Positions 1-8,547 of a stretch of 11,360 nt of DNA are shown piece after piece. The notes under the pieces were generated by a model. That model was not told the origin of the DNA and did not search any database. It saw only the letters and a list, made by a program, of their open reading frames with translations. The position numbers and the translations under genes are program-made. The stretch's first letter is position 1; each line of letters opens with the position of its first letter. Origin of the DNA: Candidatus Fermentibacterales bacterium (lineage in GTDB: Bacteria; Fermentibacterota; Fermentibacteria; Fermentibacterales; JAFGKQ01); assembly GCA_016928495.1 (NCBI GenBank), contig JAFGKQ010000200.1, forward strand, positions 1 through 11,360, written 5' to 3'.

Positions 1-289
1 CGAGCGCCCTCGAGACAGCCAGGGAGTCGGCGAGATCCGGGAGCCGGCCGATGCGCAGGGTACGGACGGCGCTGTCGGACTCCATTGCCTGTGCGAGAGG
101 GCCATGACCCGCAATGCCGATAGTGAGATCGCTCGGCTCCAGACCCTCGGAGACCTGCGTGATCTGGACCATTCCGAAGAACAGCGCCGGGTAGAGGAAC
201 AGCGGAACGACTATGGTGTAGATGAGTGTGTGCCGGTCCCTGAAGGTCGCCAGGAGCTCGAACCTGACGGACAGAAGGGCGCGTCTCAC
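1..289 (-). CDS. ABC transporter permease, ABC-2/NatB-like, N-terminal fragment
   Basis: The gene runs off the left edge, so only the first 96 codons are visible. It starts at a GTG whose last two bases lie inside the TGA stop of the upstream sensor-like gene (GTGA, 4-base overlap). A GGAGG-type ribosome site lies in 295-304. The N-terminus reads as a short basic cytoplasmic segment (MRRALLSVRFELLATFRDRH). A hydrophobic transmembrane helix follows at about residues 22-41, containing the PLFLYP stretch. After it comes a polar, presumably extracytoplasmic region with ITIGIAG-like character (TIGIAGHGPLAQAM). A basic 'rkEL.e.lRDrrtl' lead followed by a TM helix and a large exported loop is typical of NatB/ABC-2 efflux permeases. 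Substrate cannot be inferred. The ATPase partner is not visible and may lie further left. The family call is from pattern recognition of the N-terminus only. Confidence 0.72.
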   Translation of the reverse strand, partial: MRRALLSVRFELLATFRDRHTLIYTIVVPLFLYPALFFGMVQITQVSEGLEPSDLTIGIAGHGPLAQAMESDSAVRTLRIGRLPDLADSLAVSRAL

Positions 290-3200
290 CCCTGTCCTCC
301 CTCCGGCTCGCGCTCACGCGCCGCTCGCATCATCGAGGACACCCTAGAGACGGCTTCCATTGCCTGCGAGAAGCTGAACGGCCTGAACAGCGAGAGCTCG
401 GAGAGACGGCTCTCTCGCCCGGTGCCTCCGGCAGATACGTCCGCGCCGCGGAGGGCTGCGTGCTCTATCATGCAGACGATGGATCCGGGAGAGGCAGCCG
501 CCAGGCGCTCGACGAAATCGACTCCTCCGGTTCCGTGGAGCTCACGGCTCACGAACACGGCGTCGAAAGACCCGGCTGAGGCGACGAGTGACAGACCCTC
601 GGCTGCGCTCGATGCCTGGACAGCCTCCAGGCCGCTCCGTCCGAGAGCACGGGCGATCATGTGACGGGACGAGACGTCCTCGTCGAGTACCAGCACGGTT
701 CCCGCGGGCCCTTCCCCGGAAGGTCCGCTGGAGGCTCTCGCGGACGTGCCGGGAATCACTATGGAGATGCTTCTTCCGTCACCCCCTCTCATGCAGTCGC
801 CCCCGCACAGGACGATGAGAAGCTGCAGCAGGGAGAGCTCCGCAGACGGCGACAGGAAACCCATACCGAGGTCGGCCAGCACCCCACGCCCGCCTGTCGA
901 CTCCGGCAGCAGGGAGTCGCACACGAGCATGATCCCGAGGTAGACGGGAGAGGTCCCTACCACGGCCCGCTCCACCTCGGGAGACCCGGCGTGCAGAGAC
1001 CTCGCGACTATCACGCACTCCCCTTCGGACGAGCAGAGGGCAGCGAGCCGCACCAGAGCGAACCTCAGCAACTGCTCGTCGAACTCCACCGCCGGAAGCT
1101 CGCCCTCGAGCGAGAGACTGGGCGGCCTCATGCCCCGGGAGACGAATCTGTCTATGACCTCGTGCAGCACCTCCGGAGCATCCATCTTGCGCACCATCCT
1201 GAGCTGGGAGCGCAGGAAGGCCCAGAGGCAGTCCGCCACCCTGAGGGCGCCCTCCTGCTTGCTCATCAGAGATCCTGACACCGCCCGTGAGACCCTGTCC
1301 GGCGGCAGGAGGCCGAGCAGCTCCGACAGATCGTCCCTTGCTTCCGACAGCGTCCTCATGACTATCTCGGCCATTGCCGATTCGAGCCCTCTGGTCGCGG
1401 TACCCGGGTCGATGTCGGCGGCAAGGGCGGGCGTCAGCTCGTCGAGAGGTATCCAGAACAGCACTCCGCTTCCCTGTACGGTGTCCATGGAGACCAGAAC
1501 ATGATGACAGCGCTCGGTCCGTCCCGCCGGAAGACCGGAGGCGATCGCCCGGCCCGAGGAGACTGCTCTTGCCATCGCCTCTCGAAGAGGCCCCTCACCG
1601 GAAGGAAAGAGCGACGCGACAGAAACGCCTTCGCGGAGACCAGGGAACAGCCTGCCTCCGGATGGCGGGATCAGGACCTCGCCCGAGCCGTTGGTCACGA
1701 AAGCCGACGAGCCCGGGCCTCCCAGAATCGAACCCATGCTGCCGATCAGCCGCGCCTCTGCAAGGGCCGATAGCCTGGCCGAGACAATCGAGCAGAACTC
1801 GTCCAGCAGGGCGGTCCACTCCCCACCGTACATGATGAGTCTTCCCAGCGGCTTTCCGGAGGGTCCCAGAGACCTGACGGTCAGATCTCCGCCCGGCTCT
1901 GCCGCGGGCCCGGTGGACCCGGCCTCGCCGGTCAGGTCCAGCTCCACGAGGACCTTCCGTGCTCCGCTGACGAGCCTGATCGTCTCCCGGGCGATCCTCG
2001 CCAGGGCGTCAGGGTCAGGAGCCGAGCAGACCCTCGCGGTGCCGCGAACGAAGGCCTCCATTCGCCGCAGGGACTCGGTGATGCCGGACGGCACTCCACC
2101 CGTCTCCACCGGGACCCCCGTCAGCAGATTGACGAGGTCCACCCCGCCGAGCTCGGGGGTGTCCAGAGTGAACGTCCTCCAGGCGACCAGAGCTGGCTCA
2201 CTCGTGCCTTCCCTGGCCGGGGAGCCTCTCTCAGCCTCTCTCCCGACGCCCCAGACGGCCGGCCCGGAGCTCCTGGAGCTCTCGGCAAGGATGGCTCTCG
2301 CCGAGGACAACCCGCCGGCCTTCCCGAAAAGGAGATCCCTGGCCAGCTCCGGCCTGCCGAGAGCCTTCTCGGCAGGGCAGCCCGTCAGCTCCTCCATCGC
2401 CTGGTTCCAGAGCACCACGCGCCAGTCGGCAGTGAACCCGGCAACGGGAACGCCCAGGCCGCTCAGGAGAGAGGAGGCGAACTCGCGCTCCTTGTCGAGA
2501 AGGAAGTCCGCCTGCTCCCTGCCGGAGCGCTCCCTGCGAAGGCTCTCCTCTAGCAGAGCCAGATGGACGAGTGAGACACAGAAGCTCTCCGTTTCCTCGT
2601 CCACGGGCTCGGGGTCACACACCAGAAGGAAGCCGGCAGTGAAGCTGCCGACCCCGATCGGATAGACGACGCACAGCGAGAAGCTGTCGCCCAGAAGACC
2701 GGTCTCGTGCTCCCGGAGCTGGCTGCTCGGCAGAGAGGTCCAGACCGTGTCGGGGAGCCCGAGGCTCGAGAACTCCGTGCCCGGAGCGATCTGCCACTCG
2801 CCCGCGCTCGCCGAGAGGTAGGTGGACTCGAAGGGATCGTACCTGTAGACGGCCACGGCCCTCGCCGGGCAGCCCCGCAGCGCGGCGATAGCCACTCGCT
2901 CGTCGAAGGCCGGCTGCTTCTCGGAGATGTCCCGCTCGAGGAGCCCCCGGACAAGCTCCGTCCTTGCCTTCAGGGCAGAGAGCTTCTCTCTGGCCGAATC
3001 CAGCTCTGACACGTCCTCGAGTATCCCGGCCAGATAGGCGATCTCCGTCTCGTCCCCCTCCAGCGGCTTCAGAGTGATCTCCACGGTCCTGCGTGAACCG
3101 TCAGGATGATCGTAGCGGGCCGTCCGGATCGGCTTCTCCGGGGAACGCCCGGAGAGCACGGCCTGCATCAGCGCGTCCAGCTCGGCAAAGCACTCCCTGG

Positions 3201-3993
3201 GCAGTATCTCGTACACCGGCATCCCCATGAGGTTCTCGGAAACCCCGAGCATCCGCCCGAACCCCGGGTTGGAGAGCAGGATCCTGTAGTCCTGCCCGAA
3301 CAGGACGAGGCCCGTGTCCAGGTTGCGGAAGTAGGTCTGGCTCATGCGGCGGTTGGTCCTGAGACGCTTCTCCGTCCTGAAGCTGTCCGTGGTATCGACG
3401 AATGTGCCGACGACGCCGCGACCGGTGGAAACAAGCGTAGCCTCGACCCTGGTCTCGGTGCCCGGTCTGCATTCGACCTTGACGTGCCTGCCCCTCATGC
3501 AGGAGTCCAGCACGCTGTCCCAGGAGAGCAGCACCGGCTCCGGCATGAAGTCCCCGAAGCGATCGCCCAGAGCATCCTCGCTCCTTATCCCGAACATGGA
3601 TGCCATCGCGCTGTTCCAGAAACGGCAGATGCCTCTGGAATCGATCAGAGTGACTCCGGCAGTAACCTCCTCGAGCAGATCCTCGTCCAGGCCTGCCCGG
3701 GCATCGGCTCTGTACAGGACGACCTCGACTGCATCCTCGTGCCTGGCGGCTACTCCGCGAAGCCCCTCCCCGAGGAAGAGCACGGGAGCGCTTCCCTGAC
3801 CCGGGCCCCTCAGGAGGTCGGCAAGAGCCGATGGCAGGAGTGAAAGTGCATCGGGACCGTTCGACAGGGCTTCCGGGCCGATTCCCAGGACTCCCCTGCA
3901 GTCCCCGGAGATGGACTCGAACCCGGTGAGAGGCCGGTAGGTAAGGCGGGTCCACACCTGAACGCTGCTCGCTCTGAGAGTAGGGTCGCTCAT
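286..3993 (-). CDS. Multi-PAS/GAF hybrid sensor histidine kinase-like protein, catalytically degenerate
   Basis: This is a 1235-residue protein counted from ATG 3993. An in-frame GTG at 4053 would add 20 residues rich in Pro, Cys and Trp with no ribosome site, so I prefer 3993, although its own ribosome site is also weak. No signal peptide or TM helix is visible, so it is probably cytoplasmic. Approximate domain order: weak PAS (18-65), PAS (102-200, with LIDSRGICRFWN), PAS (215-332, with NPGFGRMLG and a DGSRRTVEI strand), GAF-like (340-480), PAS (500-625, with WRVVLWNQAMEELTG), GAF-like (635-745), degenerate PAS (750-848), DHp-like helices (860-955), HATPase-like (965-1081), receiver-like (1097-1220). 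The usual His appears to be Asp887 (RDDLSELL in place of HDxNNLL). The Mg-binding Asn of the N-box appears to be Ala985. The G-boxes have lost their glycines (CDSLLP). The receiver keeps the acidic pocket (DED 1104-1106), but the phospho-acceptor Asp is Ser1149, the conserved Thr is Ile1176 and the Lys is Arg1204. It probably senses or scaffolds rather than phosphorylates. The domain calls rest on reading motifs by eye. Confidence 0.85.
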   Translation of the reverse strand: MSDPTLRASSVQVWTRLTYRPLTGFESISGDCRGVLGIGPEALSNGPDALSLLPSALADLLRGPGQGSAPVLFLGEGLRGVAARHEDAVEVVLYRADARAGLDEDLLEEVTAGVTLIDSRGICRFWNSAMASMFGIRSEDALGDRFGDFMPEPVLLSWDSVLDSCMRGRHVKVECRPGTETRVEATLVSTGRGVVGTFVDTTDSFRTEKRLRTNRRMSQTYFRNLDTGLVLFGQDYRILLSNPGFGRMLGVSENLMGMPVYEILPRECFAELDALMQAVLSGRSPEKPIRTARYDHPDGSRRTVEITLKPLEGDETEIAYLAGILEDVSELDSAREKLSALKARTELVRGLLERDISEKQPAFDERVAIAALRGCPARAVAVYRYDPFESTYLSASAGEWQIAPGTEFSSLGLPDTVWTSLPSSQLREHETGLLGDSFSLCVVYPIGVGSFTAGFLLVCDPEPVDEETESFCVSLVHLALLEESLRRERSGREQADFLLDKEREFASSLLSGLGVPVAGFTADWRVVLWNQAMEELTGCPAEKALGRPELARDLLFGKAGGLSSARAILAESSRSSGPAVWGVGREAERGSPAREGTSEPALVAWRTFTLDTPELGGVDLVNLLTGVPVETGGVPSGITESLRRMEAFVRGTARVCSAPDPDALARIARETIRLVSGARKVLVELDLTGEAGSTGPAAEPGGDLTVRSLGPSGKPLGRLIMYGGEWTALLDEFCSIVSARLSALAEARLIGSMGSILGGPGSSAFVTNGSGEVLIPPSGGRLFPGLREGVSVASLFPSGEGPLREAMARAVSSGRAIASGLPAGRTERCHHVLVSMDTVQGSGVLFWIPLDELTPALAADIDPGTATRGLESAMAEIVMRTLSEARDDLSELLGLLPPDRVSRAVSGSLMSKQEGALRVADCLWAFLRSQLRMVRKMDAPEVLHEVIDRFVSRGMRPPSLSLEGELPAVEFDEQLLRFALVRLAALCSSEGECVIVARSLHAGSPEVERAVVGTSPVYLGIMLVCDSLLPESTGGRGVLADLGMGFLSPSAELSLLQLLIVLCGGDCMRGGDGRSISIVIPGTSARASSGPSGEGPAGTVLVLDEDVSSRHMIARALGRSGLEAVQASSAAEGLSLVASAGSFDAVFVSRELHGTGGVDFVERLAAASPGSIVCMIEHAALRGADVSAGGTGRESRLSELSLFRPFSFSQAMEAVSRVSSMMRAAREREPEGGQG

Positions 3994-4080
3994 GAGCCAA
4001 CCGATCCATTGCCGGAGTCCGCCGCAGGGCGGGGGCCGACACGAGTGCCGCACCCGTTGCGGTCAGCTATGATTCATACG

Positions 4081-4121
4081 CTGGCGCCCCGGGGGCAAGC
4101 CCCGGAATGGCTGTTTGCCAG
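4081..4121. repeat. Nested inverted repeats in the divergent intergenic region
   Basis: An outer arm CTGGC (4081-4085) matches GCCAG (4117-4121). An inner arm CCGGGG (4089-4094) matches CCCCGG (4100-4105) across a 5-base loop. The right outer arm overlaps the putative -35 element of ndk (4115-4120), so the structure could be an operator or a cruciform near the divergent start sites. It could equally be chance in GC-rich DNA; no protein is implied. Confidence 0.3.
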
Positions 4122-4143
4122 TGACCCGGCACCGCTCTAGAAT
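4115..4143 (+). promoter_or_regulatory. Putative sigma70-type promoter of ndk
   Basis: A TTGCCA hexamer at 4115-4120 and a TAGAAT hexamer at 4138-4143 are separated by exactly 17 bases. This is close to the TTGACA-17-TATAAT consensus. It would put the transcript start near 4150, leaving a leader of roughly 35 bases before the ndk TTG at 4184. It is the only well-spaced promoter-like pair I found by eye in the divergent region. Confidence 0.55.
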
Positions 4144-4183
4144 ACGGGCTGTGTACCACAGGAACAACGGAAGGACCCGGGAG

Positions 4184-4627
4184 TTGGAAAGAACCTTCGT
4201 CATACTCAAGCCCAATGCCGTTCAGCGAGAGCTCGTGGGAGAGCTGATCTCGAGGTTCGAGAAGCGGGGCCTGAAGATAACCGCGCTCCGCATGACGGTG
4301 CTTTCGGCCGAGCAGGCAGAGCTGCACTACGCCCAGCACAGAGAGAAGAGCTTCTACTCCGACCTCGTCAGCTTCATCACGAGCGGTCCATCGGTCCTGA
4401 TCGTCCTCGAAGCCGAGAATGCCGTATCCGTCGTCAGGCAGATGGTCGGCGCCACGGATCCCAAGGACGCGCTTCCGGGCACGATCAGGGGTGACTATGC
4501 CAATACTTTGGGTCACAATATGATCCACGCCTCAGACTCTGCCGGGGCTGCCATTCGGGAGATCGCCCTCTTCTTCACCGAAGAGGAGATCGCAAAGTAC
4601 ACGCTCTCGATAAGGCCCTGGCTCTGA
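4184..4627 (+). CDS. ndk: Nucleoside diphosphate kinase
   Basis: The enzyme transfers the gamma phosphate of ATP to nucleoside diphosphates through a phosphohistidine, balancing the cytosolic NTP and dNTP pools. The 147-residue protein has the usual bacterial length. It opens with the hallmark ERTFVILKPNAVQR (catalytic Lys9), followed by helix GELISRFEKRGLKI, then GTIRGDYA (99-106) and the active-site segment NMIHASDS with His115. HASDS replaces the commoner HGSDS; this variant occurs in other NDKs and should be active. The reading frame is open upstream to 4115, but homology begins at the TTG at 4184. An AAGGAC ribosome site at 4171-4176 lies at proper spacing, and the likely promoter lies inside the upstream open stretch, so the TTG start is well supported. 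It is the only plus-strand gene, divergent from the sensor-like gene and convergent with the barrel gene, so probably monocistronic. Confidence 0.97.
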   Translation: MERTFVILKPNAVQRELVGELISRFEKRGLKITALRMTVLSAEQAELHYAQHREKSFYSDLVSFITSGPSVLIVLEAENAVSVVRQMVGATDPKDALPGTIRGDYANTLGHNMIHASDSAGAAIREIALFFTEEEIAKYTLSIRPWL

Positions 4628-4639
4628 GACCTTCGACCC

Positions 4640-4672
4640 GGGGACGATCAGCTCGAGCTGTAGCTGATCCCC
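4640..4672. terminator. Hairpin at convergent gene ends, possible two-way terminator
   Basis: GATCAGCT (4646-4653) pairs perfectly with AGCTGATC (4662-4669) over an 8-base loop. GGG (4641-4643) can add to the stem with CCC (4670-4672) across a 2-base bulge. The structure sits just after the ndk stop (4627) and over the last codons and stop of the opposing barrel gene (stop 4648-4650). Its placement between convergent genes suits a terminator for both, but neither side carries a T run, so a classical intrinsic terminator is not shown. Confidence 0.42.
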
Positions 4673-5760
4673 AGTGCGAGAGTGTTCGCGGAGTCATCCA
4701 TGGTGACGGGGTCGTCCTGGTAGGGGAAGGGCCCCCCGTTTCTGCTCCTGGTCCAGTAGTAGTACCCGCCCTCGATGCCGAATCTGCCAAGGTCTATCGC
4801 CATTCCCAGCGAGAACCCGATGCCGGCCCTGCTGCTGGCTTCCCCGTCGTTGAAGCTGACGCCCCACCTGCTGAGGGCATGCTCTCCCATCGGCACATCC
4901 GCGAACAGCTTCACGACCACATCCTGCACTCCCGCCGGATCGGAGACCTCCGCCTCGAAGCCGAAGGTCCCGTTGTTGAGGTAGCTGAGCATCGTGTAGG
5001 CTCCGCCGGAGAGCACGGGCACAACGCCATCAGAGCCGGAGGAGAAGGCCATGCCGCACCCCATGAGGCTGTCGGCGAGCACGAAACCGGCATGGAACGC
5101 CGGTTCCTTCCAGCTCCTGCTCTCGGACAGACTGGAGTCCAGAACCGAGGTATGCAGGCTGTCTATGCTGATGGAGGAGGTGCCGGAGCCGAAGCGCATG
5201 CCTGCCGACACGCCGATGCAGAGACCGCCGAGTGGTTCGAAGGAGGCTCCCGCGGAGCACTCCCAGATCCCTCCGGTGCATTCCGCCTCGCTGATGACGA
5301 TGGTCACGGTATCGACTCCGGCCTCCTCGTAGTCGGTCTCCTGGGCGAAATAGGAGAGATCGGTGATCCTCGCCACTCCCGCGGCGAAGCCCACGCCCTC
5401 GAAGGGCTGGAGGCTTGCGTACAGGCTGACCGGGCTGAAGGTCAGACCCGACCTCTGGATCCTGTAGGGATTGTCCGCCGACTCGACCCAGATCGTGGGG
5501 CCGAGGCTGCCGGACACCTGGAGACCCGGCTCACGCGGGATGTTGGCCGGGTTCGTCAGGACGGTGCCGGGCTCGATGAGATAGACGGAGCGAAGCCCGC
5601 ACAGGGAGACGGATGAAGAAGTCAGGCCTCTGATGGCCGTTCCTCCCGACTCGGCGTCCTGGAAGCTGTAGGCGAGGCACCCGGTCTGCGCGATCAGCAC
5701 GAGCGGAAGCAGCAGACCCGGTACCGCAAGCGAGATCAGGGGGCGTTGAAGGAGTCTCAA
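4648..5760 (-). CDS. Predicted outer-membrane beta-barrel protein, second of a paralogous pair
   Basis: This is a 370-residue protein with a TTG start at 5760 and an AAGGA ribosome site (5770-5774) 9 bases upstream. A hydrophobic leader (LISLAVPGLLLPLVLIAQ) ends near CLA at residue 30. The QTGC stretch is a poor lipobox because Gln sits at -3, so signal peptidase I cleavage seems likelier. The mature part is rich in Gly, Ser and alternating hydrophobic residues, and ends in an aromatic-containing strand (LALGISYSSS), as expected for a porin-like barrel. It shares landmarks in the same order with the gene at 5861-6973: GPxIW, ARxTDxS, GGxWE, GVSAGxRFG, HAG, SGSD, FGxExExxDPxG and LGISY. An N-terminal SLCG....TNPANI region recalls the 'RS.ALGG...NPAGL' signature of PorV/FadL/UPF0164-like barrels, but is weaker here. 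Ligand and function are unknown. Confidence 0.8.
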   Translation of the reverse strand: MRLLQRPLISLAVPGLLLPLVLIAQTGCLAYSFQDAESGGTAIRGLTSSSVSLCGLRSVYLIEPGTVLTNPANIPREPGLQVSGSLGPTIWVESADNPYRIQRSGLTFSPVSLYASLQPFEGVGFAAGVARITDLSYFAQETDYEEAGVDTVTIVISEAECTGGIWECSAGASFEPLGGLCIGVSAGMRFGSGTSSISIDSLHTSVLDSSLSESRSWKEPAFHAGFVLADSLMGCGMAFSSGSDGVVPVLSGGAYTMLSYLNNGTFGFEAEVSDPAGVQDVVVKLFADVPMGEHALSRWGVSFNDGEASSRAGIGFSLGMAIDLGRFGIEGGYYYWTRSRNGGPFPYQDDPVTMDDSANTLALGISYSSS

Positions 5761-5790
5761 GCCTGTAAGTCCTTACCTGGTTTGGGTCAG

Positions 5791-5829
5791 GGCAGGAGCG
5801 GAGTCAGATCCTGTCACGCCGCCCCTGCC
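5791..5829 (-). other. GC-rich RNA hairpin between the two barrel genes
   Basis: In the minus-strand transcript GGCAGGGGCGG pairs with CCGCUCCUGCC: 11 base pairs including one G-U wobble, around a 17-base loop. The plus-strand version would carry an A-C mismatch, so the structure favours the coding transcript. It lies about 30 bases after the stop of the first barrel gene and about 30 before the TTG of the second. No U run follows. It could be an attenuator, a partial terminator or an mRNA-stabilising element that sets the ratio of the two proteins. Confidence 0.45.
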
Positions 5830-5860
5830 GAGTCCGCTGCTCCACCATCCATCAGGTCCC

Positions 5861-6973
5861 TCAGAGCACGTAGCTGATGCCCAGCACTACGTTCGTGACC
5901 GAATCGAGCACCTGATCGGGCTCTGCATGGGTGAATGACGAGTCGGCGCTCGAAGTGCTCGTCCACTGCAGAGCGGCATCGAACTGGAAGTGGCGCATGG
6001 AGTAGGTGCCGCCGAGTCCGAGAGACAGAGCGGTCAGATCGGCTTTCGATGCCTCGGTGAGGCTGATCCCCCCGCAGAAGACCAGGCTGGCTTCCGGCGC
6101 GTACTGGCCGAAAACCCTGACTACGATCTGATCGTCACCGCCGGGGTCCCTCAGCTCGCCCTCCGCCCCGAAGGCCCCGCGGTTGCTCGAGCCGGTGAAT
6201 ATGGTCCCGCCCAGGGCCACTCTCGCGGGGTACCTGTCGCTTCCGGAGCAATAGGACAGGCCCACGGAGCTCAGCCCGAAGGGGACGGTCAGCCCGGCAT
6301 GCCAGCAGAGCGCGGACTCCTCGAGCTCATCAGTCCAGGTGGAGTCACCGCTTCCTACCATGTCGTCGAACTCGTACTTCCTCTCGAGCGTCCCGAACCG
6401 CTGGCCGGCCGAAACCCCGGCGCTCAGCCAGGGACTGACCCTGAAAGCTGCCCCGCCGAGCAACTCCCAGAACCCGCCCGTGGCGCTGAGGTACTCGATG
6501 GACTCGAGCACCGCCGTGTCGGGAGGAGCGTTGTAGTTGTACCGAACATCCTCATGGCTGCCATCGGTCACCCTGGCTATCCCTCCGCCGAGCACGAAAC
6601 CTCTGGAGACCTCGATCTTCATGGCTGCAAGCGCAGATCCCAGGGCAAGGCCGCTCTGGGTCTGGCGATAGGTGTTCAGCTCCACGCGCTCGCTCCAGAT
6701 GGCAGGACCGAAAGCGATCGAGAATCTGTTGGAGGGAGCCGTCAGGAGGCCGGACGGATTGGAGAAGAGAGCAGCCGCATCCGTGCTCCCCGTCGCCATG
6801 GGGCCACCCAGTGCGATCGACCGGGGATGGACGCCTGACAGCACCGTTCCCTCCCGGATGGCATCGGGGTATCCGAAGGCAAGGGCGCCCCCGGAGAACG
6901 CCAGCACGGCGACTGCCAGCCCGGGCAGGCACAACCGGAATCTCCCGGGTCCGGGACGCAGAAGACGAACCAT
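5861..6973 (-). CDS. Predicted outer-membrane beta-barrel protein, first of a paralogous pair (PorV/FadL-like signature)
   Basis: This is a 370-residue protein with an ATG at 6973 and a strong AGGAGG-type site (complement in 6980-6987) directly upstream. The leader is basic (MVRLLRPGPGRFR), then hydrophobic (LPGLAVAVLAFSGG), with a likely cut after ALA at residue 32. The mature N-terminus carries RSIALGG (51-57) followed by DAAALFSNPSGL (65-76). This is the pattern seen at the start of PorV/UPF0164/FadL-type barrels. The rest is Gly-rich alternating strand, closing with NVVLGISYVL. Length and motif order match the neighbour at 4648-5760, pointing to tandem duplication followed by strong divergence. 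It begins only 17 bases after the lipoprotein gene ends, so the two are very likely cotranscribed. The role is unknown; transport of hydrophobic compounds and secretion-system barrel accessory are both possible. The envelope location is inference. Confidence 0.82.
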   Translation of the reverse strand: MVRLLRPGPGRFRLCLPGLAVAVLAFSGGALAFGYPDAIREGTVLSGVHPRSIALGGPMATGSTDAAALFSNPSGLLTAPSNRFSIAFGPAIWSERVELNTYRQTQSGLALGSALAAMKIEVSRGFVLGGGIARVTDGSHEDVRYNYNAPPDTAVLESIEYLSATGGFWELLGGAAFRVSPWLSAGVSAGQRFGTLERKYEFDDMVGSGDSTWTDELEESALCWHAGLTVPFGLSSVGLSYCSGSDRYPARVALGGTIFTGSSNRGAFGAEGELRDPGGDDQIVVRVFGQYAPEASLVFCGGISLTEASKADLTALSLGLGGTYSMRHFQFDAALQWTSTSSADSSFTHAEPDQVLDSVTNVVLGISYVL

Positions 6974-6990: not shown

Positions 6991-8547
6991 TCAGACCTTC
7001 TCCGCTGCGGTCTCGTCCTCGGGCTTCTGGCCGGTATCCACCGAGGGGTCCTGATCGGAGTCGACCACGGGCTCCTGCCAGGGACCTGTCATCCTCGCCA
7101 GCATGACGTCCTCGAGGATGTCGAAGACGGACATCCAGGCATCCTCGTCACCGCTGAAGACAATGGTTGCTTCGTGAGTGAGGGTGCCCTCGGAGACTCC
7201 CAGAGAGGCTTCGAAAGCCCCAATACGCCCGAGAATGACGTCGGCTCCTTCCAGATCCTGCGTCAGCCCGGCAAGCCGCTCTCCGCTTCCAACCAGAATG
7301 AAGGCGGAGCCATCGTCGACCGCGTCGAGACCGAAATCCCTCGCAAGCGAGGGCAGGTCAGTCCCATCGCTCTCGAGATCCTCGAGAGTGCCACCGACGG
7401 TCAGGTAGAGTGCGCCGTCGTGAAGCCCGGCCTGGATCTGGAGGCCGTCCGCGTCCACAGCGAGCGCGAAACGGCCGCCGAACTCGAACCTCTCGAGCTC
7501 CACCGCGCCCGCACCGGAGGCAAGGCCCGAGAGGGTCTCCAGGAGTTGCTCAGCCGCGGCTTCGTCGTTCAGCCCTATGGCGAGGCACCCGGATGGGACT
7601 CCATCCCTCATGCCGGTCAGGCTCACGCAAACGTCTCCCCTGAACAGGCCGACGAAGTCCTCGAGAGACTCGAAGCCCATCATCGCAAGCCCCATCAGGG
7701 CCTCCGGCGGGAGCTCCGAGCCAACGGAGGCGGCGATAGGCTCCATGTCAACGCAGAGCCGGGCCACGGCAATCGTCCCGCCGGGCACGAGCAGCCGTCC
7801 GCCCGAGCCCGGGGACTCGAGGAACGGCGCAACCTCGGCAAAATCAGGGTCCGTGACGTCCGCCGCCATCCTGTAGCTGATCGCCGGGCCGTCACAACCT
7901 GCCGAGAGAAGGAAGGCCGACACGCCCTCGGAAGCGGGGGGCATCCCGTAGATCATGAGATCAGCGCCTGCCATCCCGGCCAGCCCCCTGAACCTCGCGT
8001 AGCCGGGCTCCTCCGACAGAGGGCGGGAGGCCGACTCGACGTCGTCCCTGAAGTCCTCCACGTCATCGTCTCTCTCGCCCATCGCCAGGACGACGTGTCC
8101 TCCCGACTGGAAGACCTCGAGGCCCAGCTCTCCGGGAAGAAGCTGCTCCATGTTCTCCTCGACTTCCCGCAGAGCCTGAGTAGGAAGGTAGAGGGCGATC
8201 ACCTCAGGCTCCTCCGAGTGGCCCATCTCCAGGACCAGCCCCAGCTCGCCCGCTCCGTCCAGGCTGAAGAAGTCGAGCCAGCCCTCCCAGTCGAGAGGGT
8301 CGAAGCCCACGTAGTCCTCGAAGCTCTCCAGGTCGCTCTCGGGAACCAGGTTCATGGACCGGACCCGCTGCATCAGAGCCCCCGCGTCCATCCCGGACAG
8401 GTCGGCGACAACGTAGACGTCGTATCCTTCGGGCATGACGTCGAGAAGCGTCGGTTCCTCTTCCGGTCCGCCACAGGAGCACACGAGCATCGGAACGACG
8501 AGAGACACCACAGCAAACCAGCGAGTGCTCACGAATCGGGTTCTCAT
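6991..8547 (-). CDS. Acidic lipoprotein with two similar halves (DUF3352-like)
   Basis: This is a 518-residue protein with an ATG at 8547 and a GGAGG site at 8556-8560, 8 bases upstream. The leader MRTRFVSTRW then FAVVSLVVPMLVCSC fits a lipoprotein signal, with Cys25 as the lipid-bearing residue (V-C-S at -3 to -1). The mature protein is strongly acidic and ends in a low-complexity acidic tail (about 491-518). Residues about 36-203 and 253-420 appear to be diverged copies of one domain. Each opens with a P.G...VA.L..M strand-helix start, has LESFEDYVGF (73-82) or FESLEDFVGL (292-301) at the matching place, then beta strands (ELGLVLEM / DVCVSLTG) and an E..LL helix. The overall pattern resembles the poorly characterised DUF3352 group; I hold that loosely. 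It is the first gene of the envelope cluster, and its product is probably membrane-anchored in the periplasm. Confidence 0.82.
   Translation of the reverse strand: MRTRFVSTRWFAVVSLVVPMLVCSCGGPEEEPTLLDVMPEGYDVYVVADLSGMDAGALMQRVRSMNLVPESDLESFEDYVGFDPLDWEGWLDFFSLDGAGELGLVLEMGHSEEPEVIALYLPTQALREVEENMEQLLPGELGLEVFQSGGHVVLAMGERDDDVEDFRDDVESASRPLSEEPGYARFRGLAGMAGADLMIYGMPPASEGVSAFLLSAGCDGPAISYRMAADVTDPDFAEVAPFLESPGSGGRLLVPGGTIAVARLCVDMEPIAASVGSELPPEALMGLAMMGFESLEDFVGLFRGDVCVSLTGMRDGVPSGCLAIGLNDEAAAEQLLETLSGLASGAGAVELERFEFGGRFALAVDADGLQIQAGLHDGALYLTVGGTLEDLESDGTDLPSLARDFGLDAVDDGSAFILVGSGERLAGLTQDLEGADVILGRIGAFEASLGVSEGTLTHEATIVFSGDEDAWMSVFDILEDVMLARMTGPWQEPVVDSDQDPSVDTGQKPEDETAAEKV

Follow-up and report, generated by a model that had tools for sequence, protein, structure and literature searches.

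We report that the window, a stretch of 11,360 nucleotides from a Candidatus Fermentibacterales bacterium, encodes a long protein whose C-terminal part is predicted to have the fold of a histidine kinase, and that the residues of kinase chemistry are missing from it and from all of its aligned orthologues. Our preferred reading is that the protein is probably a soluble multi-sensor pseudo-histidine kinase, which acts by conformation and partner binding in the manner of DivL, RetS and RocA. We compare this reading with a scaffold outside two-component signalling, with a divergent but active kinase and with a decaying pseudogene.

The gene, its sensor domains and its neighbours

The pseudokinase gene occupies positions 286..3993 on the (−) strand and encodes 1235 residues; the frame is intact, as an earlier note on this DNA had claimed. 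It starts with an ATG at 3993, and an in-frame GTG upstream, at 4053, is a possible alternative start. Pfam finds three PAS regions (PAS_4/PAS/PAS_8 stretches) and a sub-threshold receiver in the protein, and the AlphaFold2 (AF2) model of the N-terminal 880 residues shows PAS and GAF-like folds one after another. We read the order of the sensor domains as PAS-PAS-PAS-GAF-PAS-GAF-PAS, where both GAF-like domains, the first PAS and the last PAS are putative assignments from the secondary-structure pattern.

All of these domains lie on the (−) strand. The N-terminal PAS-like domain (residues 14-95, 3709..3954) is predicted from secondary structure and conservation; it contains a family-specific motif, W-x-P..GD..GLLG, and has no Pfam match. 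It is followed by PAS domain 1 (residues ~106-205, 3379..3678; Pfam PAS and AF2 model) and PAS domain 2 (residues ~220-328, 3010..3336; Pfam PAS_4 at 2.1e-25 and AF2 model). GAF-like domain 1 (residues ~362-475, 2569..2910) is proposed only from its secondary-structure pattern, and weak GAF matches are seen in two of 18 family members. PAS domain 3 (residues ~512-630, 2104..2460) combines a Pfam PAS-type stretch, the AF2 model and an invariant W529 N530 pair. GAF-like domain 2 (residues ~655-745, 1759..2031) is suggested by the secondary-structure pattern, and PAS-like domain 4 (residues ~763-850, 1444..1707) by the AF2 secondary structure; the latter falls in an alignment gap in the ~945-aa orthologues of one genus (g8, Ca. 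Sabulitectum) and is thus absent from them. The inter-domain confidence of the sensor model is low, with a pTM of 0.42.

No hydrophobic segment recurs at a common position among the long orthologues, and none can be assigned as a membrane segment in the window's protein. Its most hydrophobic segment, at residue ~440 with a mean of 1.95, lies inside a predicted GAF fold, and the hydrophobic segment of the ~945-aa group (~842-861, up to 2.3) falls within the CA-like region.

The usual gene order in the phylum is ferredoxin, 2-oxoacid:ferredoxin oxidoreductase genes, outer-membrane protein, ndk (on the opposite strand), outer-membrane protein, pseudokinase and leuS. Here, leuS and ndk are identified by Pfam, whereas the oxidoreductase (vor) genes are what we take them to be from recognition of their sequences. 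In the window, ndk (4115..4627, (+); Pfam NDK 5.5e-55, syntenic) separates the pseudokinase from the second outer-membrane protein gene. The two outer-membrane proteins, paralogue 1 (5861..6973, (−)) and paralogue 2 (4648..5760, (−)), match TodX/TbuX-type channels of the FadL family. It is paralogue 2 that usually directly precedes the pseudokinase gene in relatives, where the outer-membrane protein gene often ends 3-60 bp upstream of the pseudokinase start. As an observation in its own right, this tandem, diverged pair (4648-6973) has no Pfam match and is kept across much of Fermentibacterota.

On the other side, the place of leuS is taken in the window by an ABC-2-permease-like frame that is cut by the contig end. 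Since relatives have leuS there, the downstream side has been rearranged in the window's lineage. By sequence impression, the frame (2-289, (−)) is the start of an ABC-2-permease-like protein; it abuts the pseudokinase stop, and Pfam gives no match for it. A further gene of the window (6991-8547, (−)), located between the oxidoreductase genes and the outer-membrane pair and not seen there in relatives, encodes an apparently secreted, lipoprotein-like protein of 518 residues (LVCSCGGPEEEP) that has no Pfam match. No response regulator or kinase gene is a conserved neighbour of the pseudokinase. Synteny is all that connects the pseudokinase with the leuS, ndk and vor genes, and a functional link to them was therefore rejected.

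Fold and residues of the kinase-like core

The earlier note had proposed profile searches of the core and the receiver. For the core, neither HisKA nor HATPase_c gives a Pfam match in the window's protein or in 17 orthologues (18 members) at E-values up to 10, while for the receiver Response_reg gives a sub-threshold match. The HATPase_c and receiver models do work in this genome, since 17 ordinary HATPase_c domains, the window's protein not included, and 22 receiver matches are detected there. As loose-threshold Pfam, PHROGs and a search of PDB sequences using the profile of the core all gave no histidine-kinase match, fold prediction was employed.

An AF2 model of residues 842-1235, built with 27 sequences, consists in its core of a two-helix hairpin (helices 866-895 and 901-929), of moderate confidence with a pLDDT of about 58-83, and a CA-type alpha/beta sandwich with a pLDDT mostly of 80-95. 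A Foldseek search of the core against the PDB returns 119 matches at E<=0.001 and, among the 50 of these that were listed, all are histidine-kinase-type or related structures. Superposition with VIA-align over ~180-200 residues gives Z-scores of 17.3 to HK853, 16.3 to RetS and 15.2 to DivL, and with hhalign the CA part aligns to five real histidine kinases of the same genome (E 5.2e-5, probability 67%). Residues ~860-1085 are thus, by predicted fold, a histidine-kinase DHp-CA core, in line with the suggestion that the fold is preserved around the missing histidine. The DHp-like hairpin (residues 866-929, 1207..1398, (−)) is assigned from the AF2 helices, the fold matches and column counts, and the CA (HATPase_c)-like domain (residues ~935-1084, 742..1191, (−)) from AF2, Foldseek/VIA and hhalign.

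The absence of the H-box, of the N-box Asn and of both glycine boxes, claimed previously from an alignment by eye, is borne out by column counts and the hhalign register over 27 sequences, although some positions have to be moved. Along the first helix of the hairpin, none of the columns has a conserved His in the 27 sequences. The phospho-His column had been placed at Asp887; the spacing of the HDFNN class to the PPD/DHP turn, together with the predicted helix 866-895, makes Glu876 (D or E in 19 of 27) the more likely position, and in either register no His is conserved. By the hhalign register, Leu986 stands in the place of the N-box Asn (mostly L/I/V across the 27 sequences), and not Ala985 as first thought; the first N-box Asn corresponds to Arg982 (mostly R/Q/L). 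Nothing comparable to the G1 motif is conserved in the family, and the G2 box, GxGLG, reads S-P-S-A-E in the window's protein. The last of these residues, Glu1052 (codon at 838..840, (−); column counts and hhalign register), stands in the phosphate loop where this box has its third Gly, and is Glu in all 27 sequences. Besides Glu1052, only Gly954 and Pro958 are invariant (27/27) in the core. Judged from these residues, the core has in all likelihood lost both the normal mode of ATP-Mg binding and autophosphorylation.

The C-terminal pseudo-receiver (residues ~1098-1220, 334..702, (−)) is assigned from Pfam, PDB receiver matches and residue alignment. Response_reg matches residues 1100-1176 with 23.2 bits (E 8e-5), which is under the gathering cut-off of 30.2; the region also matches PDB receivers by sequence, and the AF2 model is poor over this part. 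The phospho-Asp is replaced by Ser1149 and the Lys by Arg1204, so that both columns stand as originally read, while the Thr column is Glu1177 and not Ile1176. The acidic residues had been reported as kept, and the pair D1104/E1105 is indeed present. A second receiver-like domain in the window's genome (G000, contig C206:1744-2103, L149) has neither the phospho-Asp (SATLPD) nor the Lys-Pro-Phe motif, and appears to be another pseudo-receiver.

Distribution, timing of the losses and selection

A protein-only scan of genome contigs found no relatives. Scanned with a profile, the GTDB collection gives 29 loci, all of them from Candidatus Fermentibacteria, with titles naming Candidatus Fermentibacteria, Fermentibacteraceae, Aegiribacteria, Sabulitectum, Fermentibacter or Hyd24-12. 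By profile search, 40 of 42 Fermentibacterota genomes have a clear family match (the other two are 61% and 77% complete), and in a search of 385 genomes the core was matched strongly only inside this phylum. The orthologues are ~1060-1105 aa long, show 27-33% identity, span query residues ~8-1085 and then end; a shorter version of ~940-960 aa occurs in one genus. All aligned orthologues lack the same kinase motifs, and none has the catalytic residues. This, together with the presence of the family in 40 of the 42 genomes, indicates that the kinase core was already dead in the common ancestor, before the phylum diversified.

The receiver has a different history. It is carried, among the family, only by the window's protein, that is by one MAG, and a search of the relatives for the receiver or for the downstream ABC-2-like gene returned only ordinary receivers and weak permease matches; a regular-expression search for receivers gave zero matches. 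As no other member has it, the receiver appears to be a later, lineage-specific fusion, which has likewise lost its phospho-site. The suggestion that three domains lost their residues simultaneously is thus not upheld: the core loss is phylum-wide and the receiver is confined to the window's protein, which makes the two losses separate events.

The dead core is under purifying selection. For dN/dS, 22 pairs of orthologues with dS<1 were pooled; they were taken from Aegiribacteria-like and Sabulitectum-like genomes and share branches, so that they are not independent. The values are 0.133 in the DHp-like region and 0.179 in the CA-like one, and 0.08-0.22 in the sensor domains. Leaving aside copies cut by contig ends, the frames are intact in nearly all genomes. 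The exceptions are one badly broken orthologue, fragmented in genome G041, and one split frame, in G021. On the G041 contig (C8, L136), leuS, vorA/B, the outer-membrane protein genes and the pseudokinase are all frameshifted, and these breaks are therefore probably sequence errors and not decay. The earlier conclusion of a non-catalytic sensor or scaffold, as opposed to a pseudogene, is thus strengthened by full-length orthologues across the phylum, by the low dN/dS values and by the preserved fold.

Possible modes of action and known systems

That the residues of phosphate chemistry are lost while the relatives are kept intact by selection makes signalling by shape change or partner binding, and not by phosphorylation, probable. 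The main rival, which we consider rather doubtful, is a scaffold outside two-component signalling, in which the DHp-CA fold would be a platform for dimerisation and ligand binding only and would contact neither kinases nor response regulators; it might, for example, be tuned to hydrophobic nutrients that enter via the adjacent FadL/TodX-like channels. In its favour, two FadL/TodX-like genes are conserved neighbours that run in the same direction, often at a distance of 3-60 bp, no two-component partner gene lies nearby, and the CA pocket is rewritten with an invariant Glu. However, leuS, ndk and the vor genes are equally conserved neighbours, and gene order alone is therefore no proof of a functional linkage; moreover, the receiver-type domain fused in the window's lineage hints at a two-component context.

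A divergent but active kinase, with another phospho-acceptor residue and non-standard ATP binding, would account for the strong purifying selection on the core and the confident CA fold, and the invariant Glu1052, Gly954 and Pro958 could serve a new chemistry. It is nevertheless quite unlikely: none of the N-box, DxGxG and GxGxG motifs is left, the expected site of the ATP phosphates holds an acidic residue, and the first helix offers no invariant acceptor, the core invariants being just the three residues named. Least plausible of all, and in our judgement highly improbable, is a decaying pseudogene on its way out. The loss of all catalytic motifs, the fragmented copies in G041 and the split frame in G021 would fit such decay, but dN/dS is 0.08-0.22 in every domain and the G041 contig is frameshifted in its leuS, vor and outer-membrane protein genes as well, which makes sequence error likely there; the intact frames in nearly all genomes exclude decay for the family.

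In the preferred reading, that of a pseudo-histidine kinase, about five PAS and two GAF-like domains would feed into the DHp-CA core. Ligand binding to these sensor domains would shift the DHp-CA conformation, and the protein may dimerise via the DHp-like hairpin, both steps being suggested by the fold. The loss of residues argues strongly that no ATP-driven chemistry would follow. By analogy with DivL (PMC4211667) and RocA (PMC7380576), the DHp-CA module may instead bind and modulate an ordinary histidine kinase or response regulator, and in the window's species the dead receiver at the C-terminus would be an extra docking domain.

Pseudo-histidine kinases and pseudo-receivers are known kinds of protein (PMC12632262), and we found no paper combining "Fermentibacteria" and "histidine kinase". 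What appears unreported here is that the family is fixed across the phylum, that all motifs are lost and standard models fail to see it, that a Glu of the phosphate loop is invariant, and that a pseudo-receiver has been fused to one member. A bolder and more tentative proposal, possible but short of probable, is that the family is phylum-defining, HMM-invisible and obligately pseudokinase, with the ATP pocket rebuilt round the invariant Glu and the whole histidine-kinase core used as a non-catalytic signal integrator. If this is true, counts of pseudo-histidine kinases from HisKA-model hits overlook such families. HisKA domains without His have a published frequency of 0.9%, a figure that covers only Pfam-recognised domains (PMC12632262), and a dead family that is invisible to the Pfam models behind such counts suggests that they are lower bounds. 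Pseudo-histidine kinases are known from few cases; a family that is fully dead, phylum-wide and under selection offers a clean test of the role of the histidine-kinase core without phosphoryl transfer, and the later fusion of a now-dead receiver a natural example of hybrid-kinase architecture without a phosphorelay.

We finally compare the protein with known systems. RetS of Pseudomonas is a membrane-anchored hybrid sensor that acts on GacS as its antagonist. The core resembles it in fold, with a Z-score of 16.3 to PDB 7n0e, which contains the kinase region of RetS and the DHp domain of GacS, while RetS, unlike the window's protein, matches as a histidine kinase region. DivL of Caulobacter (PDB 4q20), at a Z-score of 15.2, has, like the window's protein, PAS domains leading into a dead DHp-CA module that lacks the phosphosite His. 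It has no kinase or phosphatase activity and senses a phosphorylated response regulator (PMC4211667). In DivL, a Tyr is the single substitution and weak ATP binding remains (PMC4211667), whereas the window's family, from another phylum, has lost the His, the N-box and both G-boxes, and its core is not recognised by HMMs. RocA of group A Streptococcus is a non-catalytic, histidine-kinase-like pseudokinase that acts through a real histidine kinase, CovS (PMC7380576), and a modulating role of the present family would be analogous; RocA, however, binds CovS via N-terminal transmembrane domains, and the window's protein has no assignable membrane segment. The histidine-kinase-related domains of phytochromes and ethylene receptors are also catalytically dead outputs, and phytochrome A is among the fold matches, but they belong to plant proteins, whose sensor domains bind a chromophore or lie in the membrane. 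Aspartate-less receivers, finally, make up about 2-6% of bacterial receivers (PMC12632262), and the receiver fold without phospho-Asp, Thr and Lys in the window's protein is of this type. It differs from them in being fused behind a pseudo-histidine-kinase core, so that a single chain has the layout of a hybrid kinase and none of its phosphotransfer centres.
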